Shown piece by piece: positions 28,765-59,521 of a stretch of 64,000 nt of DNA. The notes below the pieces were generated by a model. It saw nothing but the letters and a program-made list of their open reading frames with translations. It was not told the DNA's origin and searched no databases. Both the position numbers and the translations under genes were made by a program. This stretch comes from Catenovulum agarivorans DS-2 (GTDB taxonomy: Bacteria; Pseudomonadota; Gammaproteobacteria; Enterobacterales; Alteromonadaceae): positions 22,226-86,225 of the forward strand of contig NZ_ARZY01000022.1 of assembly GCF_000568405.1 (NCBI RefSeq). The letters are read 5' to 3'. Within the stretch, counting starts at the first letter, position 1. Each line of letters begins with the position of its first letter.

Positions 28765-28779
28765 AAACATCATACGTTT
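28765..28779. promoter_or_regulatory. AAACAT-N3-AYGTTT operator copy 1 (PEP-CTERM/GH82 unit)
   Basis: The sequence is AAACATCATACGTTT, a near-palindrome shared with six other sites before carrageenan-locus transcription units. It lies 105 bp upstream of the PEP-CTERM start. Confidence 0.6.
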
Positions 28780-28907
28780 TAATTATTAACGATTATTTTA
28801 CTTTTAACACTTAAGGTTAATAAATCGAAGCGGCCGCAACAGAAGTTGCATTCTAGTATTGGCTGGGGTTAAATTCGCGCTTTAGAATACTTGCAGGCAT
28901 TTAAACC

Positions 28908-29450
28908 ATGGTGTGTAACTTTGTTTTATTAAACCCGAGAAACCGTGAAAATTTAGCCACGGTTATGCGCAGTGGACAAAATTTTGCAGTGTCTTCAGTT
29001 ATTGTAATTGGTGGATTTATTGCGGATAAATATAAAGGCAACATTCATAAATTTACCCACCAAATGGACACGCAAGATGGTATGTCTAATTTAACGGTGT
29101 TGTATTTCGAAACTCTTGCAGACTTTTTAAAACACTTGCCTGCTAAAACCACTTTAGTGGTGGTTGAAATGGAAAAAGATGCCAAATATCTAGAAACTTA
29201 CCAACACCCAGAAAACGCCACATATATTTTTGGCCCTGAGCTTAAAGGTTTTAGCCAAGCTGAACTTAGCACAATAAAACACCACTTTGCTGAGCTAAAC
29301 AAGGATATACCGGCAGAGCATTTGGCCGGCAATAAACACACAGCCCATTTAGATTTTGTAAAAATTGCTATGGATAATTCGTTAAACGTCGGTGTGTGTA
29401 GCTCGATAGTCATGTATGACAGGCATGCAAAAACTTTCAAATCTATATAG
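28908..29450 (+). CDS. SPOUT-type (TrmH-like) RNA methyltransferase homologue
   Basis: This 180-residue protein resembles the SpoU/TrmH catalytic domain. The N-terminal LLNPRNRENLATVMRSGQNF stands in for the motif-1 'NPxNxGxxxRT' region, YIFGPELKGFSQ stands in for the motif-2 'GxExxG' loop, and NVGVCSSIVMYDR for the C-terminal knot motif. The S-adenosylmethionine-dependent trefoil-knot fold is inferred. It has no N-terminal RNA-binding extension. It lies between the PEP-CTERM unit and a SEC-C protein gene and looks like a housekeeping gene now embedded in the polysaccharide locus. Confidence 0.7.
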   Translation: MVCNFVLLNPRNRENLATVMRSGQNFAVSSVIVIGGFIADKYKGNIHKFTHQMDTQDGMSNLTVLYFETLADFLKHLPAKTTLVVVEMEKDAKYLETYQHPENATYIFGPELKGFSQAELSTIKHHFAELNKDIPAEHLAGNKHTAHLDFVKIAMDNSLNVGVCSSIVMYDRHAKTFKSI

Positions 29451-29514
29451 CTAAATTAGTTTCAGCTGATTAGGTCAATTTATACTTGTCTAGCGATAGG
29501 GTATAATCCAGCAC

Positions 29515-30516
29515 ATGAATGCCCACCAGACTAAACAGATGAACTTAGAACAAATTTTACAGGCCTTGGCAAGTACAGAAAACGACTCATTGCCATTAGA
29601 TGGCATCAAACAAGCAAAGGCGCATTGGTCTGTCGTCTGTCCTGAGATCCTCAATACAATTGATAAATTTATTGCAGATCCTGCTCAGTTAACCCCACAA
29701 CAACAAAGCACGTTATTTTATGGTACGTTTTTGCTGGCTGAAATGAAGCATAGTCAAGCGTTTGATAAGATTCTTGAGTTATTCTCCTGCCAAGACACTT
29801 TTTTAACCCCTATTGAAAGTGTTTTTGGCGATACACTGACAGAATTGATCCCAAGCGTATTTTATATCTTAGCCGACGGAAACCCCGAAATACTCTCTGA
29901 CTACATTTTAGATAGTCACTCGGCTATGTATGGCAAAGGTTCGGCAATTGAGGTGGTATTTGCCCAGTATGAAGCAGGTGCTGTTTCAAGAGCTCAATTG
30001 TTTGAATATGTCTCTTACTGGAAAAGCACCTTTTTAACAAACCTGAGCTTAAGTAATCGTTATTTGCTTAGCGTTCTGGCAACATCATGTATTGATTACC
30101 AACTGGATGAATTTAAAAACGAGTTTATTGCCCTTTGCAGCAAAGATGTGTTTGATGAAGATCGCGCACCTAAAGACGAAATTAAAGCATGGGATCATGC
30201 CAAAGGTATCAAACAAATAGAATCCGGCTTAATTTATACAGAGTTTAACTTAGCTGAGGTTTTTGCGACTTGGCAAACAGCTGATAATGTTGCTGGCGAC
30301 GGCCATCAGCAACAGCAGCACCAACAGCAAATGGATGACGAAATAAATCAGCTTATGGCGCAAGCAACAGATCAGTTGCGCAGCAATACTTTATTTGGTG
30401 AAGAATACATTTTGCAAAACAGTGTACCTGTTAGCAGCTTAACCGCCAAGGTTGGCCGTAATGATCCTTGCCCTTGTGGTAGCGGCAAAAAATATAAAAA
30501 ATGTTGTTTGCATTAA
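29515..30516 (+). CDS. DUF1186 protein with C-terminal SEC-C zinc motif
   Basis: This 333-residue protein has a helical repeat-like body (about 1-260) of the DUF1186 type. A glutamine/histidine-rich linker ([14 protein letters not shown]) follows, and the protein ends with the zinc-binding SEC-C motif, [21 protein letters not shown]. The motif is the one found at the C-terminus of SecA and on many proteins that associate with ribosomes or the SecYEG machinery. No enzymatic residues are evident. It follows the methyltransferase homologue by 64 bp. Confidence 0.75.
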
Positions 30517-30531
30517 AATTGTTAATTGAAG

Positions 30532-30562
30532 AAAGGCCAGCGCTTACGCAACTGGCCTTTTG
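30532..30562. terminator. Bidirectional terminator between SEC-C gene and sulfatase
   Basis: Inverted repeat AAAGGCCAG / CTGGCCTTT with an 11-nt loop and T-rich flanks lies between the convergent ends at 30516 and 30600. It can serve both genes. Confidence 0.7.
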
Positions 30563-32135: not shown

Positions 32136-33563
32136 CTAATCGTTAACCAATACAGAAACACGTTTAAGGGTTAAATATTCCTGCAAGCTATATCGAGAAC
32201 AATCTTTACCCACACCACTTTGTTTCAAACCGCCGTGTGGTAATTGCACAGAATAATGCGCTTCATTAATACACACACTACCCGCTTCAATTTGCTGTGC
32301 AGCCTGCATACCACGTTGTAAATTAGTGGTATAAACATAAGCAGACAAGCCATATTCATTATCATTTGCCAATGCGATAATGTCGTCGCTGTCATCAAAC
32401 GGAATAACCGCCATTACTGGGCCAAAGATTTCATCAGCAACAATCTTCATATCTAAATTAACGTTAGACAAAATTGTCGGTTGTAAATAATAACCGGCTT
32501 GCTCCGGCTTCTTGCCACCAGTTTCTAATTGAGCACCGTTGGCAACGGCGTCTTCAATTAATCCGATAACACGCTCACGTTCTTTCGGGCTCATCATAGG
32601 GCCCATAGTATGACCTTCAGCATAACCCGGTGCTAATTTGATACCACCTGCGATATCTTTCGCTTTGGCTAAGAAAGATTCATATACTGATTTATGCACA
32701 AATACACGGTTTGGTGATACACACACCTGCCCTGTATTAGCAAATTTTAAGTTAGTAATGTCAGTAGCTGCTTTTTCAACATCTGCATCGTCATAAACAA
32801 TCACTGGTGCGTTGCCACCCAACTCCACAGAGAAATGTTTAACATTAGTACAAGCGGTGCGCATTGCGCCAACACCTGCGCGGGTTGAACCTATCATGGT
32901 GAATAATTTAGTTTTGTCTGATGTTAATAATGGATCAGTAATGTCATAGTTATTACTGCTTATTACGTTTAAAACACCCGCTGGTACACCCGCTTCAATC
33001 GCTAATTCAGCAACTTTTAAAGATGCTAACGGTGTTACTTGAGATGGCTTAATAATCGCAGCACAACCAGCAGCTAATGATGGGCCAATTTTGTAACCCA
33101 CGTTTAATAACGGGAAGTTCCATGCCAAATAACCCACAACAACACCTAAAGGTTGGCGAGAAATAAAGTGGTGGAAACGTCCATCAGGATCATTAATTAC
33201 CGGTTGGTCTAAACGCTTGGCTTCTTCAATGAAAAATTTTAAGCAAGTGGTTAACATACCAAAGTCGTATTCTGCATTGTCGGCAGGTTTACCTGTCTCA
33301 GCGATTAAAATATCGATAATTTCTTTTTTATTCGCTTCTAAAACATCTACATACTTTAAGATGATTGCTTCACGCTTAGCCAAAGACATTTTCGACCAAG
33401 ATTGAAACGCTGTGTCTGCAGATTCTAAAGCAAGCTCAATGTGCTTAGGTTCAGCATCTGGAACATGAGCGATGACTTCTTCAGTTGCAGGGTTAACTAC
33501 AGGAAAAGTCGTTTCGGCGCCAACAAGCTCGCCATTAATTAACATTTTAAATTCAGTCGTCAT
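32136..33563 (-). CDS. Aldehyde dehydrogenase, candidate 3,6-anhydrogalactose dehydrogenase
   Basis: This 475-residue NAD(P)-dependent aldehyde dehydrogenase is without a signal peptide. Catalytic Cys281 lies in FANTGQVCVSPNRVF, general-base Glu247 in VELGGNAP, and the Rossmann motif in IGSTRAG. Enzymes of this family oxidise 3,6-anhydro-D- or L-galactose to the anhydrogalactonate in carrageenan and agar catabolism. The overlap with the racemase-family gene (stop and start share one base, TAATG) implies translational coupling. The D-anhydrogalactose assignment rests on the carrageenase context, not on sequence. Confidence 0.85.
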   Translation of the reverse strand: MTTEFKMLINGELVGAETTFPVVNPATEEVIAHVPDAEPKHIELALESADTAFQSWSKMSLAKREAIILKYVDVLEANKKEIIDILIAETGKPADNAEYDFGMLTTCLKFFIEEAKRLDQPVINDPDGRFHHFISRQPLGVVVGYLAWNFPLLNVGYKIGPSLAAGCAAIIKPSQVTPLASLKVAELAIEAGVPAGVLNVISSNNYDITDPLLTSDKTKLFTMIGSTRAGVGAMRTACTNVKHFSVELGGNAPVIVYDDADVEKAATDITNLKFANTGQVCVSPNRVFVHKSVYESFLAKAKDIAGGIKLAPGYAEGHTMGPMMSPKERERVIGLIEDAVANGAQLETGGKKPEQAGYYLQPTILSNVNLDMKIVADEIFGPVMAVIPFDDSDDIIALANDNEYGLSAYVYTTNLQRGMQAAQQIEAGSVCINEAHYSVQLPHGGLKQSGVGKDCSRYSLQEYLTLKRVSVLVND

Positions 33564-34714
33564 TACTTAGTTTCCGTTTGTTTAACAGTAAATTTCTTCA
33601 ACGCGTCGCGATTAATTTCGACACCTAAACCAGCTGCAGTTGGTACATTTGCTTTACCTTGCTCTACCTTAACCATGACATCGTACATTTCATCGCGTAA
33701 TGGATTTTCAGTGCGATCATATTCTAATAATAGCTTTTTAGGTTCGGCTCTGCCTGGCTCGTGATAGGCACTGGCCAAAAAGTGTGTTGCAGCAGCTAGG
33801 TTTAGCTGGGTGCCCCAAACGTGTGGGATAACATTTACACCATTAGCAGAGGCCATAGCACGAATTTTTAGTGCTTCAGATGGGCCACCACAATAAGCCA
33901 AATCAGGTTGCAATAAATGCACTGAGTTAGATTGAATTAAGCCGTTGTAAGCAAAACGAGTTTGCACGCACTCACCTGTTGCCAAACAAATATCCAACTT
34001 GTCGTGCAAGTTTTTGAATAAGTGCAAATGCTCTGGGGCCAACGGCTCTTCAAACCAATCGTATTTATATTCTTCCAAAACTCGACCAACTCTAATCGCC
34101 TCTGGTAAATCAAACGCATGGTTTGAATCAGCCATCAAAGCAGTTTCAGGCAATGCTTCGCGTAAAGCTTTGATAAACCGCTCATCAAATGGCACGTTTT
34201 TGCCCACTTTAATTTTCATGGCTTCAAAACCTTGATTGGCGTAACCAACACCTTCCTCAACTAAAGATTCAAGCAATTGTTCTTCTGGTAAATCAGTGTA
34301 GTACATACCTGTTGCATAACACGGAACTTGGTCTCGGTTGCGTCCACCCATCAACTCTGAAACACTTAAACCCAAAGCTTTACCTTTTAAGTCCCATAGT
34401 GCCATGTCAATACCAGACATAGCCGACATCATTACGCCAGAGCGAGCAAAATCTAGTGATGAGCGCCACATGTGCTGCCAAATCGCATCTGTAGATAACG
34501 CATGCATCTTCAAAATACGCGGTGCATAAAACTTCTCGACAGCCCCTTGGATTACATCAGCCGGGCCATAACACTCACCCCAACCAGTTACACCACATTC
34601 GGTTACGACCTCAATAAGCAACACATTGCGTTGGTCATAAAACCATTGTGAAAATCCAAATGGTGTATCTAATTGGCATCTTACATGATGGGTTCTTACA
34701 CATGCTATTCTCAT
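33563..34714 (-). CDS. Mandelate racemase/enolase superfamily enzyme, candidate anhydrogalactonate cycloisomerase
   Basis: This 383-residue enolase-superfamily protein shows the full MR-subgroup active site: K167-x-K169 (MKIKVGK), metal ligands D196 (ADSNH), E222 (WFEEP) and E248 (TGE), and the D271-H298 dyad (PHVWG). Numbering is almost identical to mandelate racemase. With the dehydrogenase coupled behind it, the best fit is the cycloisomerase that opens 3,6-anhydrogalactonate to 2-keto-3-deoxy-galactonate. A galactonate-type dehydratase is the main alternative. It is the first gene of the MR-ALDH-sulfatase unit and has an operator copy upstream. Confidence 0.85.
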   Translation of the reverse strand: MRIACVRTHHVRCQLDTPFGFSQWFYDQRNVLLIEVVTECGVTGWGECYGPADVIQGAVEKFYAPRILKMHALSTDAIWQHMWRSSLDFARSGVMMSAMSGIDMALWDLKGKALGLSVSELMGGRNRDQVPCYATGMYYTDLPEEQLLESLVEEGVGYANQGFEAMKIKVGKNVPFDERFIKALREALPETALMADSNHAFDLPEAIRVGRVLEEYKYDWFEEPLAPEHLHLFKNLHDKLDICLATGECVQTRFAYNGLIQSNSVHLLQPDLAYCGGPSEALKIRAMASANGVNVIPHVWGTQLNLAAATHFLASAYHEPGRAEPKKLLLEYDRTENPLRDEMYDVMVKVEQGKANVPTAAGLGVEINRDALKKFTVKQTETK

Positions 34715-34731: not shown

Positions 34732-34746
34732 TTACATACTACGTTA
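34732..34746. promoter_or_regulatory. AAACAT-N3-AYGTTT operator copy 2 (MR-ALDH-sulfatase unit)
   Basis: The sequence is TTACATACTACGTTA, weaker at the outer bases but with the same ACAT-N3-ACGTT core. It lies 18 bp upstream of the cycloisomerase gene start. Confidence 0.5.
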
Positions 34747-34764: not shown

Positions 34765-34783
34765 AGGCGGCATCGGGCCGCCT
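34765..34783 (-). terminator. Terminator after the second sulfatase gene
   Basis: 7-bp arms AGGCGGC / GCCGCCT on the minus strand are followed by GTTTTTATC. It lies 9 bp after the sulfatase stop and before the next unit's operator, so it closes the GH127-sulfatase unit. Confidence 0.75.
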
Positions 34784-38544: not shown

Positions 38545-38559
38545 AAACATATGATGTTT
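38545..38559. promoter_or_regulatory. AAACAT-N3-AYGTTT operator copy 3 (GH127 unit)
   Basis: The sequence is AAACATATGATGTTT, 70 bp upstream of the GH127 start. It is the plus/minus mirror of copy 1. Confidence 0.6.
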
Positions 38560-40109: not shown

Positions 40110-41225
40110 CTAATCCACTTTACGATATGAACGGATCCAATCTACTTCCATATCATTCGGATAACCTTCGCCCGTCGCTTCGCTGCGAACTGGACAACGA
40201 TTAAACCCTTCATATTCACCAGTACAGTCATAAGTTACATGTGGCGAACGCAACCCAAGTGATAAGGTAACCCGCATTGGTAAATGCCAATACTTGTTTG
40301 GTTTTTGAAATACCTGTTTGCCATCTAAAAACCAAGTTATGGTTTCTGGGGTAATCTCTGCAGCGTAAATATGAAAGTCTTCTCTTGGATCAAAATCAAC
40401 TAATAGTTTATTTTGTGCCAAATCAGAAAAATCATTGTGTGGTCGAACTTGAATTTGCTCACCATTTTCACCACGTACCACAGCATGCAAATTCATATCC
40501 ATTACTTTTTCATCATCCCATTTTGCCGTACCTGTAATACTGCTCCACTCTCGTTGCTGTAGTTCAACTATGTCTACTTCAGAATAAAATGGCTGTTCTG
40601 CTTCAGTCGGCTTCATGCCTGCCGCATCTCTATCAGCTGCATTGCTATACAACCAAAATGCTGGGCTTGCCCCTGGAAAAGTTGGATTACCCTTGATACG
40701 GGCTTCAAAATAACCATAAGTAATGGTTTCGCGTGCGCGGACTATGCCTGATTTATAAAACATATCGTTTGATATTAGTTCGCTCGTACCATTACGCGTG
40801 CCCCAACGGGTATCAGTATGAGGCTCATATCGCATGGTTAGATGCAAATGACCTTCCGCGTCTATCGATGTATTATCAGGCTCCCATGACCACGGGCCCC
40901 AATCATTAATATCGTTGTCCCATTTATTTAAATTAATCGTGGCATCATTAAACTCATCCGATAAATTCTCAACCAGCTGCCATTGTGATTTATCGACATT
41001 CTCTCTTGTCGGGAATAAATCCTCACCCGCTTGTGGAGTATCAATTTCAGGTTCTTGTTCCTGTTCCTGCTCTTGTTCCTGTTCTTGCTCTTGTTCTTGC
41101 TCTTGCTCTTGCTCTTGCTCTTGCTCTTGCTCAGACGATGATAAATTTGGCGAATCTGACGAGCCACCACAGCTGATTAATACACTAGCTAAAGCACAAA
41201 GGATTAAATTGTATTGAAATTTCAT
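40110..41225 (-). CDS. GH16 lipoprotein, kappa-carrageenase-like
   Basis: This ~371-residue lipoprotein (ALASVLISCGGSS) has an acidic Glu-Gln repeat linker (about residues 32-58) followed by a GH16 jelly roll. The catalytic E-x-D-x-x-E motif is SEVDIVEL, E216, D218 and E221 counted from the ATG at 41225. The following LQQREWSSITG and MDMNLHAVVRG segments, and WFLDGKQVFQKPNKYWHLPM, resemble kappa-carrageenases (GH16_17). It would retain endo-cleavage of kappa-type regions at the cell surface. Start choice: ATG at 41225 has GGAG 5 nt upstream. Subfamily is inferred from sequence resemblance and locus context. Confidence 0.85.
   Translation of the reverse strand: MKFQYNLILCALASVLISCGGSSDSPNLSSSEQEQEQEQEQEQEQEQEQEQEQEQEQEPEIDTPQAGEDLFPTRENVDKSQWQLVENLSDEFNDATINLNKWDNDINDWGPWSWEPDNTSIDAEGHLHLTMRYEPHTDTRWGTRNGTSELISNDMFYKSGIVRARETITYGYFEARIKGNPTFPGASPAFWLYSNAADRDAAGMKPTEAEQPFYSEVDIVELQQREWSSITGTAKWDDEKVMDMNLHAVVRGENGEQIQVRPHNDFSDLAQNKLLVDFDPREDFHIYAAEITPETITWFLDGKQVFQKPNKYWHLPMRVTLSLGLRSPHVTYDCTGEYEGFNRCPVRSEATGEGYPNDMEVDWIRSYRKVD
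41052..41132. repeat. Glu-Gln coding tandem repeat in the GH16 gene
   Basis: This 81-bp tract of TTG/CTC-type 6-bp units encodes E followed by 13 copies of Gln-Glu pairs. Unlike the hexamer tract at 23.5 kb, codon usage varies between units, showing it is older or less slippage-driven. Confidence 0.85.
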
Positions 41226-41321
41226 TAGCACTCCTATTGGGTGTTAATTATGTTTTAACAAGGGGAAAAAATGGCATAAATTGGGCCACCCAAGATTAGG
41301 GTGGCTCTGCTATGAAAGGGG

Positions 41322-43216: not shown

Positions 43217-46200
43217 TTAGAAAGTTGCACGAATACCGACACGGAACTGACGGCCAGTTTTAAACTGAGCACTTGTTCTGTTGGTAGTAATGCTGCTATC
43301 TTCCATCGCGTTACCTTCGTCTAGTACAATTCGTTCTTCCCCTTCAGGTGTTGTATTAGACGCCGTATAGAAGACTCGGCGAGTATCATCTGTTAGGTTA
43401 GTTGCTTGGAAAGTTAAGCTAACTTGTTCAGTTAGCTTAAAGCTTGAACTGAAGTCCAATCTGTTTGTTGCCTCTTGCCAAGTCGCACCACCAATCATGC
43501 CTTGGTCAACCAATTGCACGCTGTTGTATCTGTTGGCAAGACGAAGCGAAATGCCGTCTTTTTCCCAAAATACAGTGGTATTAGCAGAATGCTTTGGCGT
43601 GTACGGCAATGGTAATGGCTTTAAGAATTGACCAGTTGTGCCAATTTCTTCAGCATCACGCTCAGACACTTGATATGTATAATTGACGCTTAAACCTAAA
43701 CCTGACCAAATACCCGGTAAAAAGTCGTAGTTCTGCGTATATCCCAATTCGACACCGCGCATTTCCGAGCCATCACCATTTTTATACACTTCAATTTGTG
43801 CGGTATCACAGCCTAAATTATATGGAAACGCTTGGTAGGCAACTTGTCGCTTCGGCATACAGTTTTTAACATCCCCTTCAACCATAGTGCCTGGATCACG
43901 CGCTGTGTTGTAGTCCATCAGCAAATCAGCATTGTCTAAATTGTATTCAGTTCGTACGTCTTTATAATGCATTGGTGTCAATACTGTTTCTTCGAAGTAG
44001 CGCATGTCTTTGTAGAATACCGCCGCAGACAACATGCTAGATTCGTTAAAGTACCACTCGTAAGAAATATCTAAGTTATTTGACTCCAAAGGTTTTAGAT
44101 TGATATTACCAGACTGACCATAGGTGTTGTCCCAAGGGTCTTCTGTGATTTCTAAACGAGGGTTTAATGAATCGAATTGTGGGCGAGCCATGGTTTTTGA
44201 AACAGCAAAGCGTAAAACAGTTTCTTCGTCAATTGCATAGTTAAGGTTTAAGCTAGGCAACAACAAACTAATGGTATTAGAGCCAGCGACTGGTGCGACA
44301 CGACGCGTAGTATTGTCTTGATCACCATTCGGCCCTGACCATGCTGTTGAACGGTCTATATACTGTGCCATAAAGGCAGCTGTATTAAAGTTACGGTTGG
44401 ATGTTGCGTTGCTGTTTACCGTCGAGCCATCGTGTAAATACACTTCATTGGGCAAACCACCATTAGTTATAAGTTGACCTGTTGCATAGTCATATTGAAC
44501 TAAACGGTTAACCGAATAGTCTGGGTTGCCATTGGCGTCTTTAAATAACCATTCGCCAGTCAAGTCGGTATCAGAGGTTGGATAGGTGTTTGCGTTACCT
44601 GTGACATAAGCATGGGTAATTGCCCAGTCCCAACAATCTTTGAATTTAGTGTCGAAGTCAGGATCCCCCGATACGAAACCAGGTACAGTCGGGAATCGAT
44701 CATCAACAGCAAAGTTTGGTTCTGGACACGGTTGTGAACCTTCAATATCTGCAAGTTTTCGATTAACAATTAAGTCGTATGCATCAATAAGATGCGGGTT
44801 ACGATAATAGGTTATGCCACCCACGCCTTGAGCTCTATTTTCATCTCTAACGTAACGTAAACCAATATTACCTTTTAACTGACCATCTAATAATTCAAAG
44901 TTCAACTTACCGTATAAAACTTGTGTATCCGTTTGGATATTTCGGGTGCCGAGTGGGCTTGCACTAATACCAATTGAGCTTGGGTCTTTACTGGTAAATG
45001 CTGTAATGGCTTTGTAAGCATCTAACATTGGCCAGCCAGCAAAAAACTGGTTGCTGCGAGCATCAACAACGTCTGCTAAAAAGTCATCATACGGGAAAGC
45101 TTCGCCTGACATCATGTCTGCAATACTAATAGACTGCATACCTGTACTTGAATAATCCGCACCTGGATCGGTCGCATCTATAATGGATTGACCACTGTCG
45201 ATAAATTCACTTTGGGTAAATACGTCTTTTTCACGCTCAGAGTATTTCACACCGAATTCTAAAGAAGTTAGATAGTCGCCGTCCAAATACCAATCAAAAT
45301 CTAAAAATAGTGATTTGTTAGTATCGGTTAAGTGATTGTCGCGGAAGGTAAAGCCACTTAAGTGATTTGCGTTAACATCATGCGGATTAAAACGGCTTGA
45401 GGCGAACTTCCAGCTACCATCAAATGGGTCTTGTATCGCCATTTTGGTACCTGTATAAAAACTACATTGCTCAGTACTACCTTCGGTACAGTCGTAGCCA
45501 ACAGGCTCGATTAAATCAGCATCCATGTTATTGACAATTGGGCCACCCGTGGTACCCCAAGTTGTTGCACTTAAACCAAGTGAACCCTCAGTTTCATCGG
45601 TCGTTCGTGAATAACCTGCCGTTAACTCCATCTCAAGATTATCAGTAATAGACTGCTCAATTCGAAGAGAGACAACATTAGTTTCTAATTCACGTTCACC
45701 TTGGTTACGATTGATAAAACCAGCTGCGCGGCGAAGTGATTTTTCTAACGTCATTGTCTCTTCGTCTACAACATTCCACTCGGTAGTTGGATCGTTTGGA
45801 TTCAACGTATCTTCTGGCGCGAAGTTAATGCGCAAGGTATGGTTGTCTGTTGTAACGGTTTGTGTGGTATGCGAGATATCTAACTGGATATCGGTTCGAT
45901 CAGTTGGACGAATTTGCACACCTGATGATAAAGTAAAACGCTCGCGTTTGTCGGTATTTAAACGAAAATCGGTAAAGTTACGTGCCAGCACGTGCATTTC
46001 TTCGCCATCTGCCAGTGTGATTGGCTGACCCGTTTGTAAAGACGTTGCGGTACGACCAGATGCTGCATTTGCATCCATAATCGGCAATGCATTTTCATTC
46101 CACTCTGTTTCAATACGATCTTGACGATTTTTCTGAGTGTCTTGCGAAACGGTAAATACCACACCTAAAGTATCGTTTAAAAATTTGTCGGCATAACTAC

Positions 46201-46819
46201 CAACTAATCTTTCCGTCCACTCGCCTGAAAATTCATTATAACGACCTTCGATAGTGGTTGATAAACGTCGTTTATTCAAATTGAGGGGCTTAATCGTACG
46301 CAACACAACAGTTGCACCCAAAGACCCTTCGTCTTGGTCTGCAGCTGAAGTTTTCATGACATCAATTGATGACAGGATATCAGATGAAAATGAGCTTAAG
46401 TCAACACTGTTATCTGCGCTGGCATCATCAGCACCGCCGCTAAAGCCACCAGTCAAAGCAACGCCATTCATTGAAACTTGGTTTAACGCCGCACCTGCAC
46501 CACGAACTGAAATTCGAGTGCCCTCGCCATCTTCTTCTTGAACGGTTACACCAGTCACGCGAGAAAGTGCATCACCAATGTTTTGGTCGGTTGACTTACC
46601 AACATCTTCAGCGTGAATTGAATCGCTGACCCCACTGTTAAAACGTTTAGCATTTAGTGCGCGTTGAATACTGCCTCTAAAGCCTGTTATCTCGATTGTT
46701 TCTATTTCTTCGTCTGCGGTTTTGTTTTGAGAATTTTCTTCTGCAGCATAAAGAGGTGTAGATGCAAAATTAGCCATAATGGCCACTGCAACCGCTTTAT
46801 ATTTAAAATGGTTGTTCAT
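43217..46819 (-). CDS. TonB-dependent outer-membrane receptor (large, Xanthomonas/Caulobacter type)
   Basis: This ~1200-residue TonB receptor has a signal peptide (VAVAIMANFASTPLYA), a TonB-box-like EIETIEITGFRGS, and a plug domain with DALSRVTGVTVQEEDGEGTRISVRG. A 22-strand barrel follows and ends in the aromatic residue motif RVGIRATF. It imports oligosaccharides too big for porins, using TonB energy. The start is the ATG at 46819, after GGAG at 6 nt; an in-frame GTG at 46831 overlaps the ribosome-binding site. It heads the receptor-lipoprotein-GH16-symporter unit, divergent from lacI. Confidence 0.95.
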   Translation of the reverse strand: MNNHFKYKAVAVAIMANFASTPLYAAEENSQNKTADEEIETIEITGFRGSIQRALNAKRFNSGVSDSIHAEDVGKSTDQNIGDALSRVTGVTVQEEDGEGTRISVRGAGAALNQVSMNGVALTGGFSGGADDASADNSVDLSSFSSDILSSIDVMKTSAADQDEGSLGATVVLRTIKPLNLNKRRLSTTIEGRYNEFSGEWTERLVGSYADKFLNDTLGVVFTVSQDTQKNRQDRIETEWNENALPIMDANAASGRTATSLQTGQPITLADGEEMHVLARNFTDFRLNTDKRERFTLSSGVQIRPTDRTDIQLDISHTTQTVTTDNHTLRINFAPEDTLNPNDPTTEWNVVDEETMTLEKSLRRAAGFINRNQGERELETNVVSLRIEQSITDNLEMELTAGYSRTTDETEGSLGLSATTWGTTGGPIVNNMDADLIEPVGYDCTEGSTEQCSFYTGTKMAIQDPFDGSWKFASSRFNPHDVNANHLSGFTFRDNHLTDTNKSLFLDFDWYLDGDYLTSLEFGVKYSEREKDVFTQSEFIDSGQSIIDATDPGADYSSTGMQSISIADMMSGEAFPYDDFLADVVDARSNQFFAGWPMLDAYKAITAFTSKDPSSIGISASPLGTRNIQTDTQVLYGKLNFELLDGQLKGNIGLRYVRDENRAQGVGGITYYRNPHLIDAYDLIVNRKLADIEGSQPCPEPNFAVDDRFPTVPGFVSGDPDFDTKFKDCWDWAITHAYVTGNANTYPTSDTDLTGEWLFKDANGNPDYSVNRLVQYDYATGQLITNGGLPNEVYLHDGSTVNSNATSNRNFNTAAFMAQYIDRSTAWSGPNGDQDNTTRRVAPVAGSNTISLLLPSLNLNYAIDEETVLRFAVSKTMARPQFDSLNPRLEITEDPWDNTYGQSGNINLKPLESNNLDISYEWYFNESSMLSAAVFYKDMRYFEETVLTPMHYKDVRTEYNLDNADLLMDYNTARDPGTMVEGDVKNCMPKRQVAYQAFPYNLGCDTAQIEVYKNGDGSEMRGVELGYTQNYDFLPGIWSGLGLSVNYTYQVSERDAEEIGTTGQFLKPLPLPYTPKHSANTTVFWEKDGISLRLANRYNSVQLVDQGMIGGATWQEATNRLDFSSSFKLTEQVSLTFQATNLTDDTRRVFYTASNTTPEGEERIVLDEGNAMEDSSITTNRTSAQFKTGRQFRVGIRATF

Positions 46820-46887
46820 GTGGTACTCCACTGAGTTATTGATTTGTGCTTGTCACCCATGCGTTGCGTCAAAAGTGGAAATATAAA

Positions 46888-47051: not shown

Positions 47052-47066
47052 AAACATACTACGTTT
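47052..47066. promoter_or_regulatory. AAACAT-N3-AYGTTT operator copy 4 (TonB receptor unit)
   Basis: The sequence is AAACATACTACGTTT, extended to TTTAAACATACTACGTTTAAA. It lies between two LacI-type palindromes. Confidence 0.6.
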
Positions 47067-49327: not shown

Positions 49328-49374
49328 AATAACTCTAGTAATATCAGTAAAAAATTTTGTCTGTTTAGGTCAGG

Positions 49375-50355: not shown

Positions 50356-50548
50356 CAGCTGTCATCCAAAATTCGAGTGAAAGTAAAATCACAAGTAGCC
50401 ATTTAATCTGTGGTGCAATTTATACCCCGACTTTTAGATGAATAAAATCTAGTATATTTCACGGTTAAGTTGAATTTATTTCATGATAGAGCAATTAAAA
50501 AAGGTTAAGCTAGCGTCAGTTTTTGAATGTAATGGTTAAGGTAATTAA

Positions 50549-51355
50549 ATGAATGAACTGCTGTTGTTGTTTTTGTATTGTGCAATATTAGGCGCAGGTG
50601 TTGGTTTTTTAGCTGGATTATTAGGTATAGGTGGCGGGTTGGTTATTGTACCAATTCTAAGCAGTATATTATTGTATTTTAATAGCGTTCCACCCCACCA
50701 GGTGATCGTAACCGCGGTTGCAACTTCGTTGGCTTCAATTTTATTTACCTCAACTTCTTCGGCAATTGCTCACCATAAAAATGGCAATGTGCCTTGGCAA
50801 CTGGCACCTTGGATAATGACAGGTGTAGCGCTTGGTTCGCTCATTAGTGGTTTTATCGCCGCCGTGTTACCTGAAAAATGGGTACGTATGGTGTTTTTTG
50901 TCAGTGTAATATTAATTGCGTTAAAAATGATATTCAGTGGCAACAATACCAATCAACCAACCCGTACCATGCCAAATAAAGGATTGTTAACCGTATTTAC
51001 CAGCCTAACCGGTGGTTTATCAGCTATGATTGGCATTGGTGGAGGGGCCTTGTTGGTGCCGTTGTTAAACTTTTTCGCAATTGATATGAAAAAAGCCATT
51101 GGCTGCGCTTCTGCTTGTGGCATTGTTATCGCGCTATTTGGATCTATTGGTTATATTAGTTCTGGCAGCGCCCATTTTTCGATACAAGATGGCTTTGCGG
51201 GTTTCGTGTATTTACCTGCATTGTTTGGCATTGTCTGCACCTCATGGTTTACCGCGCCGTATGGTGCAAAAGCAACACACTACTTACCCGTTACAACCAT
51301 TAAAAAAATATTTGCCCTGTTATTGTTGGTAATGGCTGCGAATATGTTGAGGTAA
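50549..51355 (+). CDS. TauE/SafE-family anion transporter
   Basis: This 268-residue TauE/SafE (DUF81) membrane protein has about eight helices and the two inverted-repeat glycine motifs LAGLLGIGGGLVIVPIL and LSAMIGIGGGALLVPLL. Members export or import sulfite, sulfoacetate or other organic/inorganic anions. In this locus, where sulfatases release sulfate, a sulfur-related role is tempting but unsupported by sequence. Divergent from mesX. Confidence 0.85.
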   Translation: MNELLLLFLYCAILGAGVGFLAGLLGIGGGLVIVPILSSILLYFNSVPPHQVIVTAVATSLASILFTSTSSAIAHHKNGNVPWQLAPWIMTGVALGSLISGFIAAVLPEKWVRMVFFVSVILIALKMIFSGNNTNQPTRTMPNKGLLTVFTSLTGGLSAMIGIGGGALLVPLLNFFAIDMKKAIGCASACGIVIALFGSIGYISSGSAHFSIQDGFAGFVYLPALFGIVCTSWFTAPYGAKATHYLPVTTIKKIFALLLLVMAANMLR

Positions 51356-53921: not shown

Positions 53922-56357
53922 TTAGATTGAAGTTAACCGCAGTAACATGACTCCTTTAGAATCGATATTAAAGTTTGTTGGCTGAGCGTTTTCAGTAAAC
54001 ATATCTACAACTTTAATTTTATCTGCGCCTTTTAAGCCTAAGGTAACCTTAGCTTGGTGTTTACCAATATTCAGCAAGCTGACTAAGTAGCTACCATCCG
54101 CTTGTTTCACCGCTTGCCAACGGATACCTTTGTGATCAGTTCCGTTGTCTTCAATCAAAGTAATGTCAGGCAAACCACTTTGAGCGTTTTCTAGTGCTAA
54201 CGCACGAATGTCGGCTAAGCTTTGCTGACCATCCAACACAACCAATTTACCTTTACTCGCATTTAGTTTAGTTTTATGAGCTTGGCCATATTCGTTTTTA
54301 CTTAAGCTTTGTGGGCCATCAACAATAACTGTACCGCCCTGGTCAAGATAACTTTGCAATGCAGCTAGCTCGTTAACTGTCACAAACTCAGTTTTGTAAA
54401 CAACTATGTTATCCCAAGAATCATTGTCCTGCTTTTCAATGATTTTTTGCGTTGCGAATCCCATTGGGAAACCGTCAAAGAATAATTTCTCATACATATT
54501 AAACTGCTGCGACATATGAAACTTTTTGTTAATCGCAGATGTTTCAGAGTAGAACAAACGAATTGGTCTGCGCTGTTTACGCAATTGGATAATTTCTTCT
54601 GAAAAACTGTTTAGGTCGTACATTACCTGAGTAAAGGCATTTGCAATGTGCGGTTGCTGATTAACTGAACCTGCAAACGATCCCGCTAGCGCAGGGTCAA
54701 AGAAGTTCAACTCGCCTTCAAGTCTATCTTCAAATGAACCATCCGGGTCGCGTGCCCAGAACCATGCCATATTCGCATCCATACCTTGCAAGGTTGCCAA
54801 CCAATAAACATTGTCGACATACTCAACTGAGGTATCTAAATCACGCCACCATGAAGCGGATAAGAAATGAGACTCAGAGTTAATGTGGATCTTGTTTGGT
54901 GATACTGATTCCATAAAGTCATATGAAATGGCAAGCTCTTCCCACATATAAGCGTAGTGTTCTTCCCATTTTTGTGGTTGCTTAAGATGTAAAAAGCGTT
55001 TCTCGGCTGCTTTTGCATCGTTACCTATCATAGAGGTAAGCTCAGTTAAGGCTTCTACATCTATACCATGTGAGCGACTGTTTTCGCTAAACATGTTCGG
55101 CATAATTTTAATATGAGTGTCTGCATCTGGATTACCTTTCCTAAGTTCACCCTGCAAGTGAGTAAACCAGCTGATACTTCTGTCCATATGATATCGATTC
55201 CAGTCATACCAAATAGGCGTGCCTTGAGTGTTTTTGTCTATTGGAATGGTAATCTCTACCGTGTTGAACGATTCGAAATTGCTTTGCCAATTTGCATTAA
55301 GCGCTTTGATGTCACCACTATATTTATTCGCCAACCACTCACGGAAATTATTTAAGGTGTATGACGAGATATCATTCATTTCTTGGAACCTATAGCTCCA
55401 ATGGTCGGATTCAGAGAACCAGTGTGGCTCATTCGCTAAAATATAGCCTAGCTGAGTTACCTTTTTCCCTTGAGTTAACGCACCAGTGTCTTTAGCGATT
55501 TTACCCCAAGTGTCGCGTACTAACGGATTATCTATATCATAACCGGTAAACAACGAACGGCCTTTACGAACTTCAGGCTCGCGCTTTTCAATCCACTCTG
55601 GAATACCCATGTTCCAGTATATTAAAAAGCCGACATTACTATTATCAATTTGTGTAACTTCTTTTAGTAATTCTTGATCATAAGTACCGTCTTCTTTTAA
55701 TAAGAAAGAGTTAATTGCGCGGTCATGATCAACTGGATATAGGTTTTCACCACCATGATAAATTGCCCCAAGGTGGTCATTGTAAATATCTTTATTGGTT
55801 AATGGCTGACCAACTGTTTTAGAAAAATAATCGTATAAAAAGATTGGTTTACCATTGCTTTTAAGCATATTGTCGGCAACTTCAATATTTTGCCAATCTA
55901 CTTTATTGACCGGGCGGCGTTTAATTTCGCCCTTCATCACTGCAGTTAATTCAGCGATGCCTGCGTCTAAAATTTCATTTACTTTTTGACGTTCGAAGTC
56001 AGGCAAATCTTTCGCCAACTGCTCAGCTTGATCTGTATATGGCCCATAGTAAGAAAAAGCTTTGGCAACCGCTTCTTCATTTGCTTCATCCCAATCAGCA
56101 AATTTCAAAAATTCTTTGGCAAACCAAACCACTGTTTCTTCACGAGTAACATCTATGCCTTGGCTTTGTGCTTGTTTCATTTTGCTTTCAAGTTCAGCAA
56201 TTTTTTGCTGTGCCTGTTGAACCAACACATTTTGATGCGCACTTGCTTGAACAGGTGCTGCTGTTTCGCTGCTATTTTGTCCAGCGTTATCACCGCAAGC
56301 CATTAGGCCTAGCGGCAATATACCTGCTAATACTGCATGGGATATTTTGTTTAACAT
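53922..56357 (-). CDS. Clan GH-A exo-hydrolase lipoprotein, GH42-like/GH167 candidate (copy A)
   Basis: This 811-residue lipoprotein (ILPLGLMACGDN) has the same layout and positions as its downstream neighbour: acid/base E310 in ILANEPHWF and nucleophile E495 in INSESHF. Long blocks are identical (for example FSKTVGQPLTN and YHGGENLYPVDHDRAINSF), but loop segments differ, such as residues 449-470 after NDAK. The two genes are 75 bp apart and form a tandem duplication that has diverged. An operator copy lies upstream of this first gene. The pair may act on differently sulfated oligosaccharides. Confidence 0.75.
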   Translation of the reverse strand: MLNKISHAVLAGILPLGLMACGDNAGQNSSETAAPVQASAHQNVLVQQAQQKIAELESKMKQAQSQGIDVTREETVVWFAKEFLKFADWDEANEEAVAKAFSYYGPYTDQAEQLAKDLPDFERQKVNEILDAGIAELTAVMKGEIKRRPVNKVDWQNIEVADNMLKSNGKPIFLYDYFSKTVGQPLTNKDIYNDHLGAIYHGGENLYPVDHDRAINSFLLKEDGTYDQELLKEVTQIDNSNVGFLIYWNMGIPEWIEKREPEVRKGRSLFTGYDIDNPLVRDTWGKIAKDTGALTQGKKVTQLGYILANEPHWFSESDHWSYRFQEMNDISSYTLNNFREWLANKYSGDIKALNANWQSNFESFNTVEITIPIDKNTQGTPIWYDWNRYHMDRSISWFTHLQGELRKGNPDADTHIKIMPNMFSENSRSHGIDVEALTELTSMIGNDAKAAEKRFLHLKQPQKWEEHYAYMWEELAISYDFMESVSPNKIHINSESHFLSASWWRDLDTSVEYVDNVYWLATLQGMDANMAWFWARDPDGSFEDRLEGELNFFDPALAGSFAGSVNQQPHIANAFTQVMYDLNSFSEEIIQLRKQRRPIRLFYSETSAINKKFHMSQQFNMYEKLFFDGFPMGFATQKIIEKQDNDSWDNIVVYKTEFVTVNELAALQSYLDQGGTVIVDGPQSLSKNEYGQAHKTKLNASKGKLVVLDGQQSLADIRALALENAQSGLPDITLIEDNGTDHKGIRWQAVKQADGSYLVSLLNIGKHQAKVTLGLKGADKIKVVDMFTENAQPTNFNIDSKGVMLLRLTSI

Positions 56358-56405: not shown

Positions 56406-56420
56406 ATTCATATTATGTTT
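56406..56420. promoter_or_regulatory. AAACAT-N3-AYGTTT operator copy 5 (GH-A hydrolase pair)
   Basis: The sequence is ATTCATATTATGTTT, retaining CAT-N3-ATGTTT. It lies 49 bp upstream of the copy A start. Confidence 0.45.
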
Positions 56421-56466: not shown

Positions 56467-58341
56467 TTATAGTTTAACCGTACGGTTTATCGAATTGACC
56501 GATTCAGTTAAGTGTTCGCCGTTCGACCAAGTCACTTGCACCTTCACTGTTTCATTACAATTTGCCAAACCAAAATGCACTACTGGGTTAAAGCTTTGCG
56601 AATAAGCAGCTGATGTTGCGCCCACGCGTTGCATTTGGCTATTTTCACACGCTTGTACCTTTACAACCGCCCCTAATGCACTAACGTTAGATTTAATTGA
56701 GCTAGGTACTTTAACTTGAATATAGTTGCTGTCCGCCTGCTGATTATCAAATAAATGCCACTTGCCGCGCTCATGACCAATAAGCAAATCAACTTGTCCA
56801 TCTAAGTTGTAGTCAACAGGTTCAATACCTAAACCAATCGCACCGTATTCTTTTGTAACCACTCCATGGGCTTGTTTTTTAGCAAAACTTTGTCCTTGTT
56901 GATTTAAGTAAATTAATGCTGAGTTTTCATCAACTAAATTTCCACGCTGTATAATTGCAATATCCTGATAACCATCGTTGTTGAAATCAGCTACTGCGCT
57001 AGAAGTTGTATGGCTGTGGTGTGATAAACCAACTTTATTGGTTACATTTACAAATTTACCATTGCGATTCTCCAATAGTAGATCTGGCATTTTACTCACT
57101 TCTGTTTGCTCAGAAAAACCGCTCACACCGGTAATAACACCTGTCATTGGCGACCACATATTTCCGGCTAATTGCCACTGTCCATTACCGATATAGCCGA
57201 TATACGTGCCTTTTTCGGTCAACTTATCTGGAAAACCGAGCGCATCACTATTAACAAGGCGGATATCCCGACCTGAGTGTGTTTCTCCAGGGAATTCATA
57301 TTTGTACGCTGATTCACCTATGAGTAAATCTTTAGTTGGCCATTGGCTTTGTAAGTTTTCAAAGTGAATGACATCACCGGCATAAAATGGTGGGAATTTG
57401 TGCGCACCGCGTTTCCAATAGAAACCAAGCGCCTGTTTTTGAGGATTATAAAATGTATCGCCAGCTTTAAATTCTTCACCACGCGTGATTAGTAGATCAA
57501 AGTCACCGTCGTTATCATAATCAATCTCACTGACACTGGTTGTGTGCCTAACGGTCGTAGGCAACACAGTCTTAGTTACATCTTCATAATTAAAAGCGCC
57601 ATTGGCTTGATATGCTTTAAGTGGGCCAGTTCCATATATCAATAAATCGGGCAAACCATCATTATTAAAGTCAGTTACCAAAGTTTTTTGTCCATCCCCG
57701 TGGATAGCAGGCAAACGGGCTTTTTCAACCAGTTGGCCATCTTGGCTATTTAGATACAAATAATTTTCGCTTTTACCTTTCATTTCTCTGGAGGGAAACG
57801 CAAAGTTAATTAAATCAAGCCAGCCGTCTTGATTTAAATCAACCCACTTAACCGTGCGTCCACGCATCATAGCCAGTGGTGTTGCAAACTCACCAAATTG
57901 GCTAATGCTGCGCTTTTTATCAAAACTGACAACCTTACTGTTCCGAGCATTGCTACCCGAACCACCACCACGCGAAATCACTAGATCGATAGAGCCATTT
58001 TTATCAAAATCCGCGGCTGTTAAACCATGGACATCGCCCATAATCAAATCATATGGTTTGGCAAATTTTCCTTGGTTATTCCATAATATTTTGACGCTAA
58101 AACCATGATCGTTCAGTAAAAGATCTGGGTAGCCATTTTGGTCTAAATCGGCAACCGTTGCGACATCCCATTTGCGCAAGTTTTTGTTACTGTATTTGAA
58201 AGCGTTATCGGCTGGCGTAAATATTGTTGTTGATGCGGGTTGAGCAATGACTTCATTTGTGCCCTGACATCCAACTAAAGCTAACAGTACAGCAGAGGTT
58301 AAACTTGTTGGTTTTAAAATTTTTTTGACTTGCTTGTTCAT
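56467..58341 (-). CDS. FG-GAP/VCBS-repeat lipoprotein with C-terminal ASPIC/UnbV domain
   Basis: This 624-residue lipoprotein (AVLLALVGCQGTN) carries at least six FG-GAP/VCBS calcium-binding repeats (DLDQNGYPDLLL, DFDKNGSIDLVI, DFNNDGLPDLLI, DYDNDGDFDLLI, DFNNDGYQDIAI, DYNLDGQVDLLI), typical of a beta-propeller. The C-terminal ASPIC/UnbV domain (about 545-624) ends VQVTWSNGEHLTESV. Such proteins are common in algal-polysaccharide loci; a glycan-binding role is inferred, not proven. It follows the GH16 gene in the same direction, 17 bp apart. Confidence 0.8.
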   Translation of the reverse strand: MNKQVKKILKPTSLTSAVLLALVGCQGTNEVIAQPASTTIFTPADNAFKYSNKNLRKWDVATVADLDQNGYPDLLLNDHGFSVKILWNNQGKFAKPYDLIMGDVHGLTAADFDKNGSIDLVISRGGGSGSNARNSKVVSFDKKRSISQFGEFATPLAMMRGRTVKWVDLNQDGWLDLINFAFPSREMKGKSENYLYLNSQDGQLVEKARLPAIHGDGQKTLVTDFNNDGLPDLLIYGTGPLKAYQANGAFNYEDVTKTVLPTTVRHTTSVSEIDYDNDGDFDLLITRGEEFKAGDTFYNPQKQALGFYWKRGAHKFPPFYAGDVIHFENLQSQWPTKDLLIGESAYKYEFPGETHSGRDIRLVNSDALGFPDKLTEKGTYIGYIGNGQWQLAGNMWSPMTGVITGVSGFSEQTEVSKMPDLLLENRNGKFVNVTNKVGLSHHSHTTSSAVADFNNDGYQDIAIIQRGNLVDENSALIYLNQQGQSFAKKQAHGVVTKEYGAIGLGIEPVDYNLDGQVDLLIGHERGKWHLFDNQQADSNYIQVKVPSSIKSNVSALGAVVKVQACENSQMQRVGATSAAYSQSFNPVVHFGLANCNETVKVQVTWSNGEHLTESVNSINRTVKL

Positions 58342-58358
58342 AATAGTGACTTGTTACT

Positions 58359-59393
58359 CTACTGATTAATATGTTGAGGCTTTTGCCATACGCGCACATA
58401 TTCGATTTCATAATCGACAACACCATCGTGTTTTTCACCTTCTGGGCTGTTTTTCTCCAAATCTTCTAAACTGTCTGGAATGCCATGCCAAGGGAATGTT
58501 TCTTGGTCTAGCCATAAACTAATAGGTTTAGTTGCAACGTAACCATTGTAGTCAGCTGGTACTTCACGATTCTCTCGTGCCCATTCGGTTACCTCTTCAG
58601 CTGTTACTTGGCTAAATAGTTTTCCATCAACATAATATTTAATGCCTGATTCGTCCCATTCAAAACCATATACGTGGAAGTCGTCAGCAACTCTAAAACC
58701 AAGGTCTTTTTTCTCAGTGTAAGTCGGTTTACCCCGAACAGCTGGGCTCCAATCTCGCACTGACCACCACAACTGACGATCTAAATGGTCTTTGTCTCCC
58801 TCGCGTCCATCACCAAATAATTCAAAAAAGTCGATTTCTAGTTTCTCGCCAATTGACCAAAATGCACTTGATATTTCAGCATCTGCCGCCTTCGCTTTAA
58901 TTTCAACATAGCCATAGGTAAAGAAACGCCGACCAATTAAACAGGCTGTTGTAATATTTTCGTAAGGCACAGCTTCACCGAAAACAGGTTTGTGTATTTC
59001 AGTCTCAAATGGGAAATCTGGCTCCCAACGGGTTTCTAATATTAATTTTCCATCTTCCAGTCGATAATTTCGGCCAGAGAACTGCGAAGGTGCGCGGCCT
59101 TTCCATACTTTTTTGTTTGGTTTGTCTGGATGTTTGTATACGGGTTTACCATTTTCGAATTTACCCACAACATACCATCTGTCTTCATCTAAGGTGCTAG
59201 AATCAAATTCATCACTGACTTGAGTATTTAGAATCCAGCCGGCTCGATTCTGCTGATCGCTAAAAGGCATAACCTGCCGGTTGTTGTCTGTTTGTACAGG
59301 TGCATTCATCGCGCCGCATGCACTTAATCCTAACCCCAAACCAATCGATACTACACAAGCCTTTAAATTAAAGTTTTTCAAAATTTGCATCAT
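58359..59393 (-). CDS. GH16 lipoprotein, second type (furcellaranase/beta-carrageenase/porphyranase-like)
   Basis: This ~344-residue lipoprotein (IGLGLGLSACGAM) has a GH16 domain with catalytic LEIDFFELFG (E186, D188, E191 numbered from the ATG at 59393). The scaffold (AFWSIGEKLEIDFFELFGDG and PISLWLDQETFPWHGIPD) differs from the kappa-carrageenase-like gene at 40110 and resembles the agarase/porphyranase/furcellaranase branch of GH16. It probably attacks a part of the polymer with less sulfate. Start: ATG at 59393 (or 59390); an in-frame extension to 59414 would be seven residues longer. Operator copy 6 lies 28 bp upstream. Confidence 0.8.
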   Translation of the reverse strand: MMQILKNFNLKACVVSIGLGLGLSACGAMNAPVQTDNNRQVMPFSDQQNRAGWILNTQVSDEFDSSTLDEDRWYVVGKFENGKPVYKHPDKPNKKVWKGRAPSQFSGRNYRLEDGKLILETRWEPDFPFETEIHKPVFGEAVPYENITTACLIGRRFFTYGYVEIKAKAADAEISSAFWSIGEKLEIDFFELFGDGREGDKDHLDRQLWWSVRDWSPAVRGKPTYTEKKDLGFRVADDFHVYGFEWDESGIKYYVDGKLFSQVTAEEVTEWARENREVPADYNGYVATKPISLWLDQETFPWHGIPDSLEDLEKNSPEGEKHDGVVDYEIEYVRVWQKPQHINQ

Positions 59394-59420
59394 AACCACA
59401 CCAATTAATAACATCTAAAC

Positions 59421-59435
59421 AAACATACTATGTTT
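59421..59435. promoter_or_regulatory. AAACAT-N3-AYGTTT operator copy 6 (GH16/ASPIC unit)
   Basis: The sequence is AAACATACTATGTTT. It is the best match to a perfect palindrome among the seven sites. Confidence 0.6.
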
Positions 59436-59506
59436 AGGGTATATTTCAACAAAAGTTGCGATATTTGCAAAAAATTTACAAAGAGGTGCCTTTACAAACA
59501 AAAAGA

Positions 59507-59521
59507 TTACATATGATGTTT
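59507..59521. promoter_or_regulatory. AAACAT-N3-AYGTTT operator copy 7 (second TonB receptor)
   Basis: The sequence is TTACATATGATGTTT, 109 bp upstream of the second TonB receptor and 86 bp from copy 6. The two sites could serve the divergent promoters. Confidence 0.5.

Follow-up and report, generated by a model that had tools for sequence, protein, structure and literature searches.

A CAT-N3-ATG palindrome as the predicted operator of a GntR/FCD repressor pair for scattered carrageenan genes in Catenovulum agarivorans DS-2

How might carrageenan genes that are split over several contigs of one genome be switched on together, and which protein would read the signal? The question is raised by a stretch of 64,000 nucleotides from Catenovulum agarivorans DS-2 (contig NZ_ARZY01000022.1, positions 22,226 to 86,225; the whole stretch is called the window), in which a first-pass annotation had marked seven copies of a 15-bp near-palindrome, AAACAT-N3-AYGTTT, before genes of a carrageenan locus. 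Each of the seven sequences was confirmed at the coordinate reported for it, and the seven copies belong to a set of sites that extends beyond the window. Judged from sequence comparisons, AAACAT-N3-ATGTTT very likely serves as operator for a pair of GntR/FCD repressors, R1 and R2; seated in the spacer between the -35 and -10 boxes, they would keep the promoters of carrageenan and 3,6-anhydrogalactose genes shut.

The draft genome (4.57 Mb, 143 contigs) was searched for the exact pattern AAACATNNNAYGTTT, which occurred at 11 places (four in the window, four on contig C27, two on C14 and one on C2). Ten of the 11 lay within three carrageenan/anhydrogalactose loci, so that this genome-wide search did not return the random scatter that had been proposed as the refuting outcome. 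On C27, genes for sulfatases, a TonB receptor, an ASPIC protein and two GH167-like enzymes (GH, glycoside hydrolase family) accompany that of an iota-carrageenase (1h80, E 6.9e-193). The C14 locus combines a tandem pair of FCD-GntR genes with genes for a sugar transporter, a 2-keto-3-deoxy-D-galactonate (KDGal) kinase, an aldolase of the 2-keto-3-deoxy-6-phosphogluconate/2-keto-3-deoxy-6-phosphogalactonate (KDPG/KDPGal) type, a GH127 enzyme and four sulfatases. The dauC/dauD-like genes of this genome are on C14, the dauA/dauB-like genes being in the window on a different contig. Both exact sites on C14 directly precede the regulator genes R1 and R2. Of the sites with one mismatch, three are placed here. 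The first (C2:123330) lies upstream of a lactonase-like gene, homologues of which share a strong site with a sugar-transporter operon in three relatives (L149, L150, L151). The second (C56:11044) lies between two halogenase genes; in genome G348, which belongs to the genus group of C. agarivorans DS-2, a homologue of the C56 receptor adjoins a GH167-like gene, an exact site (L158:7033) separating the two, and C56 probably belongs among the gene sets linked by the sites. The third (C11:63549) falls within an open reading frame (ORF).

The first-pass annotation had argued that a second regulator, encoded outside the window, was implied. The genome gave 19 matches to the GntR helix-turn-helix (HTH), 17 of them above the cut-off, and none of the 19 was on the window's contig. 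The best candidate was found on C14, and the missing regulator is very probably the tandem pair R1 and R2 (together C14:97653-99392), distant homologues of DgoR. R1 corresponds to C14:97653-98396 as the longest ORF, with a conserved start near 98384, and R2 to C14:98658-99392; both combine an N-terminal GntR winged HTH (PF00392) with a C-terminal FCD domain (PF07729), each above its cut-off, and both stand in an operon-like run with the KDGal kinase and KDPGal aldolase genes. The best solved-structure match of R2 was 7c7e (E 2.6e-35, residues 23-238), taken from its sequence alignment to be DgoR of Escherichia coli, with which R2 shares 33% identity. R3 (C27:48135-48803), the third FCD-GntR gene of these loci and one that codes for a distant FCD protein, was rejected as a candidate, having among the sites listed none of at least 11 out of 12 matches directly upstream.

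The palindrome was found to accompany the regulator gene across bacterial classes. Upstream regions of 250 bp were scored for 25 orthologous regulator genes from 19 genomes or records, and of 320 bp for 37 paralogous loci among the matches listed; L068 was dropped from the counts as the same gene as L060. At least 11 of the 12 consensus positions were matched upstream of 19 of the 25 orthologues, from Alpha- and Gammaproteobacteria, and of none of the 37 paralogues (Fisher 4e-11, a nominal value given shared ancestry). A 10/12 match was present upstream of a single paralogue, and the reversed consensus at 11/12 or better was absent from both sets (0/25 and 0/37). Since so many orthologous regulator genes are preceded by a site of their own, autorepression would be expected. 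In Nitratireductor, three Granulosicoccus and Albidovulum (57-64% GC), each stretch of 13-21 kb contains just one site with no more than one mismatch, and this site adjoins the regulator gene. Sites before the regulator gene were also present on plasmids of Roseibium, Sulfitobacter and Paracoccus, where the regulator is followed by genes annotated as ABC transporter, GMC oxidoreductase, aldehyde dehydrogenase and mandelate-racemase-like protein and, in Sulfitobacter, by a KDGal kinase and a KDPGal aldolase. On plasmid pKCTC22325 of Pseudoalteromonas carrageenovora, two TonB receptors, the gntR pair, dauABCD homologues and a sugar-transporter unit all have exact sites upstream. Six other genomes (G213, G194, G272, G064, G082 and G348) carry many sites upstream of homologues of window, C27 and C14 genes; TonB receptors, carrageenases, sulfatases, GH127 enzymes and dau genes are among the genes preceded by sites in relatives, as are some genes that have no homologue in these three loci.

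The gntR genes bear the site just as other genes do, as would be the case if they were mere targets of another protein that binds the palindrome. This is quite improbable, because the site tracks R2 orthologues over two classes while being absent before the paralogues, because the single site in the Nitratireductor, Granulosicoccus and Albidovulum regions precedes precisely an R2-type gene, and because neighbouring regulators are inconstant, an AraC gene lying near the P. carrageenovora sites and a LacI gene in the window instead. The window's LacI-family protein (lacI, 47272-48279) was itself weighed as the cognate regulator, given that site 47052 sits in the intergenic region between lacI and a TonB receptor gene. 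That region holds, twice, a different and LacI-like palindrome that would fit the LacI protein much better, and no lacI is listed in the site-bearing 40-kb stretch of P. carrageenovora, for which the gene table is incomplete. Together with the tracking of R2 orthologues in other genomes, the distinct palindromes led us to rule out LacI, an explanation to which we give very little credence. The LacI-type palindromes, CGCAAGCGCTTGCG (46985-46998) and CACAAGCGCTTGCG (47177-47190), differ from AAACAT-N3-ATGTTT, as the first-pass annotation had maintained; since they flank site 47052, dual control of the receptor unit is suggested.

Palindromes of the form AATCAT-N3-ATGAT(T/A) were seen upstream of the DgoR-like paralogues L119, L124, L128 and L135, with a variant in L118; sharing the CAT-N3-ATG core, they may represent a sister operator class. 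Loss of the usual arginine at HTH position 28 was considered as the cause of the AT-for-GT core and rejected, since the 37 paralogues also lack arginine there (in the 25 orthologues the position is taken by N, T, G, A or D).

Co-occurrence was assessed in 394 genomes sampled from the order, with an R2 orthologue defined by E<=1e-60. Such an orthologue was present in nine genomes, in which the exact pattern AAACATNNNATGTTT occurred 8, 6, 11, 9, 4, 6, 3, 7 and 7 times (mean 6.8), relative to a mean of 0.63 and a median of 0 in the other 385 (Mann-Whitney 5e-9, ignoring kinship). At least four exact sites were found in eight of the nine genomes and in five of the 385, and the reversed pattern occurred 0-2 times per genome in the same nine. 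The sites were also clustered around the regulator: all ATG-type exact sites of G213 (7), G105 (7) and G194 (11) fell within 41, 31 and 89 kb, respectively, holding the regulator gene, and in G272 six of nine exact sites were on the regulator's contig. Among the matches listed for 398 genomes of the phylum, R2-like proteins were either in G000/G194 (72-100% identity) or at most 41% identical, a gap by which the R2 group is sharply bounded in this sample.

The position of the sites relative to promoters was analysed using 75 non-coding sites (at least 11/12 matches) with a gene start within 400 bp, of which 49 one-sided sites were used and 26 two-sided sites excluded; flanks had played no part in the choice of sites, and sites were aligned by gene direction. 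A TTG triplet at exactly -10 was shared by 27 of the 49 sites (2 on the mirror side); none of the other offsets between -30 and -4 had it in more than three. AT was found at +18/19 in 31 cases (mirror 17) and at +27/28 in 29 (mirror 16), or in 20 of 40 (mirror 12) after removal of nine sites with a start codon there. These conserved flanking positions appear to mark the -35 box, the -10 region and the start point of a promoter, transcription being predicted to begin about 12 nt beyond the site; the operator would then occupy the spacer of the two boxes, a placement that suits a repressor. In the window, the flank score favoured the carrageenan-gene direction at all seven sites. Among the 19 regulator genes with a site of at least 11/12, the gap between site and start codon was 11 nt in nine, 9 nt in three and 13 nt in one; no obvious ribosome-binding sequence was seen by eye in these short-gap genes, which suggests leaderless messages. 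In the remaining six, including R1 and R2 of the window's genome, the gap was 31-56 nt.

This geometry bears on whether R1 and R2 bind the palindrome but mainly activate, or need an effector in order to bind. The site is fixed inside the promoter, between a -35-like TTG and an AT-rich element, and a dimer occupying it should shut out RNA polymerase. Both this placement and the usual location of activator sites, further upstream, count against activation. According to the abstract of PMC7674646, DgoR binds its repeats in the presence of D-galactonate; as described in the available part of PMC12288454, D-galactonate releases it. Activation or effector-dependent binding is given as unlikely, and repression by promoter occlusion, which the site geometry and the DgoR precedent suggest, is preferred.

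The statistical weight of the window sites was evaluated with a scoring matrix built from 91 non-coding site records (at least 10/12 matches) in 26 loci of other genomes, with L060, L064 and L065 excluded from training and two training loci overlapping by 4 kb, and with 60 first-order Markov shuffles of 64 kb each. Six of the seven sites were the top six scores in the whole window, all of them intergenic. At thresholds of at least 16, 12, 10 and 8 bits, 4, 5, 6 and 7 matches were observed relative to 0.07, 1.18, 3.13 and 6.45 expected per shuffle. The ranking is partly circular, since the training sites were chosen with the first-pass consensus; the co-occurrence and flank tests are independent of it. 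The best match outside the carrageenan region reached 5.1 bits (8072, within an ORF), which bears out the earlier remark that no copy had been noticed in housekeeping regions. Chance matches in A/T-rich intergenic DNA would explain why matches with up to three mismatches were rarer in the window than in shuffles (180 relative to 255) and why site 34732 scored at noise. The excess at 16 bits and above excludes A/T-rich background as the source of the strong sites, and the confinement of ten of 11 exact matches to three loci, the flank conserved at a fixed offset and the retention of the motif directly before the regulator gene at high GC make chance scarcely credible as the general explanation.

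Several results nevertheless weigh against the palindrome being the operator of R1 and R2. Six of the 25 orthologues lacked a site of at least 11/12 upstream (two had 10/12 matches, three were second tandem copies, and L078 had none). A perfect 22.2-bit site (C2:203570; L001:1501-1515) precedes a 171-aa protein near an rseB-like gene; no carrageenan link was found for it, and the neighbouring gene had no homologue in the nine loci compared. Outside their clusters, G213 and G194 carry two AYG-type exact sites each, and five site-rich genomes are devoid of an R2 orthologue (G375 with 11 sites, G209 with 6, G211 with 5, G076 and G226 with 4 each). In G375 (C4:44860-687084) most sites read AAACATTCCATGTTT and most are clustered at 650774-687084, which may reflect another system or a repeat. 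The co-occurrence analysis covered R2 orthologues alone, and R1 and R2 could be fellow targets instead. Within the window, the loose consensus is not enriched, so that significance is carried by the strong sites; the weaker sites are individually non-significant; and strongly positive promoter flanks were seen at two sites alone (38545 and 47052). General scans for sigma-70 promoters gave no excess in the window over shuffles (31 relative to 32.9, and 13 relative to 26.6), and no promoter is claimed from them.

On the predicted mechanism, R1 and R2 bound between the -35 and -10 boxes would keep the promoters blocked, and the scattered genes would be induced jointly once a sugar acid from the breakdown is present. 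The sites would link the window set (carrageenases, GH167, GH127, sulfatases, two TonB receptors and dauAB-like genes) with the iota-carrageenase, sulfatases and receptor of C27, the lactonase-like gene at C2:123330, the C56 genes in all probability, and the C14 set of R1, R2, sugar transporter, KDGal kinase, aldolase and GH127. The inducer would be a sugar acid of the pathway, either 3,6-anhydro-D-galactonate or 2-keto-3-deoxy-D-galactonate, each of which would fit the shared genes; lodged in the metal-containing pocket of the FCD domain, it would cause release of the DNA. A metal-bound sugar acid is envisaged as effector, and probably not D-galactonate itself. A broader reading is favoured with some reserve, as being somewhat likelier than its alternatives taken together: R1, R2 and their orthologues would form a distinct family of sensors for the 3,6-anhydro-D-galactose pathway, with a CAT-N3-ATG operator within the promoter spacer; in marine Alphaproteobacteria they would control a compact monosaccharide operon, and in carrageenan-degrading Gammaproteobacteria the operator would have spread, placing a dispersed polysaccharide regulon under one monosaccharide-derived signal; and many of the regulator messages would be leaderless, the start codon being the transcription start, 9-13 nt past the operator.

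The genes that the window sites would control make up a region that, by its sequence, encodes carrageenan digestion, with the carrageenases, S1 sulfatases, GH127 and dauA/dauB-like genes by which a carrageenan utilization locus is recognized. The spacing of 20-225 bp between site and gene, stated by the first-pass annotation, held for five sites and was slightly off for two (34732, 18 bp; 59421, 7 bp), with distances taken from longest-ORF starts; the units below are putative and follow gene order, and features are on the minus strand unless stated. The predicted operator AAACATCATACGTTT (28765..28779; 19.7 bits, rank 3) lies 90 bp from the gene start at 28675 and would head the genes of a PEP-CTERM protein (28028-28675) and of a 1284-aa protein (24072-27926), the latter ending in a GH82-like iota-carrageenase domain (residues 828-1284; 1h80, E 1.6e-166), so that a carrageenan gene set does follow this site; the flank scores (minus 1.8, plus -2.6) preferred this direction. 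The strongest predicted operator, AAACATATGATGTTT (38545..38559; 22.4 bits, rank 1), has TTG at -10 and a flank score of 13.8 on the minus strand, and lies 70 bp from the start at 38475 of a putative unit of a GH127 enzyme (36403-38475), 3,6-anhydro-D-galactosidase-like by family, and an S1 sulfatase near exo-2S-iota-carrageenan sulfatase (34792-36351; 6pt4, E 1e-208). A terminator-like hairpin (34765..34783, a consensus match; 14 in the region relative to 8.7 expected) parts this unit from the dauB-like gene. Beyond it, TTACATACTACGTTA (34732..34746), 18 bp from the gene start at 34714, scored 4.1 bits (rank 17), which is noise by sequence alone, so that its standing as a site in its own right was not upheld; it was kept as a weak candidate solely for its position after the hairpin (flank scores: minus -0.2, plus -10.9). 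It would head a dauB-dauA-sulfatase unit, comprising an enolase-superfamily (MR/MLE) enzyme that is dauB-like by context (33563..34714), an aldehyde dehydrogenase that is dauA-like by context (32136..33563), homologues of which adjoin dauB-like genes in relatives, and a sulfatase. Strong sites were found upstream of dauB homologues in four relatives.

The predicted operator AAACATACTACGTTT (47052..47066; 18.4 bits, rank 4) is placed about 220 bp from the receptor start at 46831 and about 205 bp from lacI, with flank scores (minus 9.5, plus 1.6) preferring the receptor direction; its putative unit would comprise the TonB-dependent receptor (43217..46831), a Big2 protein, a GH16 kappa-carrageenase (40110..41231; 1dyp, E 1.6e-53) and the transporter of the major facilitator superfamily that is also encoded in the region. 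The predicted operator ATTCATATTATGTTT (56406..56420; 10.9 bits, rank 6; flank scores minus 2.4, plus -1.1) lies 49 bp from the gene start at 56357 and would head two tandem GH167-like genes (53922-56357 and 51411-53846; 6ptm, 9whd) whose products are 59% identical to each other. Near the end of the region, AAACATACTATGTTT (59421..59435; 21.1 bits, rank 2; flank scores minus 0.8, plus -18.2) is a predicted operator 7 bp from the start at 59414 of a GH16 enzyme (58359-59414; nearest solved relative 9ijc), followed by an ASPIC/FG-GAP protein (56467-58341), and TTACATATGATGTTT (59507..59521, plus strand; 13.2 bits, rank 5) would serve a TonB-dependent receptor on the plus strand (59630-62512) with its start about 110 bp away; a good promoter flank is absent from this last site (plus -3.1, the preferred direction; minus -9.3). 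The middle of the locus (48281-51355) contains methionine-type genes (Meth_synt_2, MesX) and a TauE exporter gene, without any site. The genome has four GH167-like paralogues, the window pair and a pair on C27 (L051:812-5732), the copy at 53922 sharing 54-59% identity with three of them.

For carrageenan digestion in Gammaproteobacteria, the literature searched goes, in the parts available, no further than gene labels where control is concerned. The genes required for it are spread across several loci, and a common operator with a candidate regulator makes the regulon directly testable. With a short matrix, regulon members can be read from any genome, an inducible promoter/repressor pair is offered for red-algal biomass, and the pairing of regulator and operator is seen to be kept across two bacterial classes. 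In the available texts on regulation by carrageenan and anhydrogalactose (subscription papers and preprints lay outside the scope), an AAACAT-N3-ATGTTT operator was not described, and none appeared in the accessible portions of PMC5698469, PMC6262041, PMC6923384, PMC6952198 and PMC12549532. The figure legend of Gobet et al. 2018 (PMC6262041) labels the P. carrageenovora GntR 'Galactonate operon transcriptional repressor', and in the part of that paper at hand, where 'binding site' and 'palindrom' have 0 occurrences, neither an operator nor a regulon is described for it; GntR-like genes are likewise named in a figure legend of Ficko-Blean et al. 2017 (PMC5698469).

Four known systems can be set beside the one predicted here. 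CgrA of Zobellia galactanivorans, a positive regulator of its carrageenan locus, part of which is induced by D-anhydrogalactose (PMC5698469, as far as its available text goes), resembles R1/R2 in controlling carrageenan catabolic genes, but is an AraC-family activator from Bacteroidetes, whereas R1 and R2 are GntR/FCD proteins and predicted repressors. The operator of the FadR subfamily is TKGT-N3-ACMA, some members having other motifs, according to the section seen of PMC4494728; relative to it, AAACAT/ATGTTT keeps the 3-nt centre and changes GT/AC to AT/AT, giving the core CAT-N3-ATG. DgoR of E. coli, the GntR/FadR-family repressor of the D-galactonate dgo operon, is described in the portion seen of PMC12288454 as a dimeric repressor released by D-galactonate. 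It is matched by R2 in full-length homology, by the 3-nt centre between half-sites and by the KDGal kinase and KDPGal aldolase neighbours (on C14, in P. carrageenovora and in Sulfitobacter). Of the 11 pocket residues listed in the accessible part of PMC7674646, R102 and the metal residues D146, H150 and H195 are kept in all nine aligned orthologues, R224 in eight and D184 in seven, T191 is S or T, and Q173, R179, W181 and S221 are replaced. DgoR differs in its operator, the E. coli dgo upstream region reading, by eye, TTGTAGTACAA and TTGTACTACA, of the TTGTA...TACAA type with a GT-N3-AC core instead of CAT-N3-ATG, and matching the present consensus in 9 of 12 positions at best; it differs also in reach, controlling one operon where R1 and R2 are predicted to control a polysaccharide regulon over several contigs. 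The fourth is the gntR gene of the P. carrageenovora carrageenan plasmid, on which tandem orthologues (68% and 65% identical to R2) are encoded beside the dauABCD homologues, and the palindrome recurs upstream of the regulator, of dauABCD, of the sugar transporter and of the TonB receptors.

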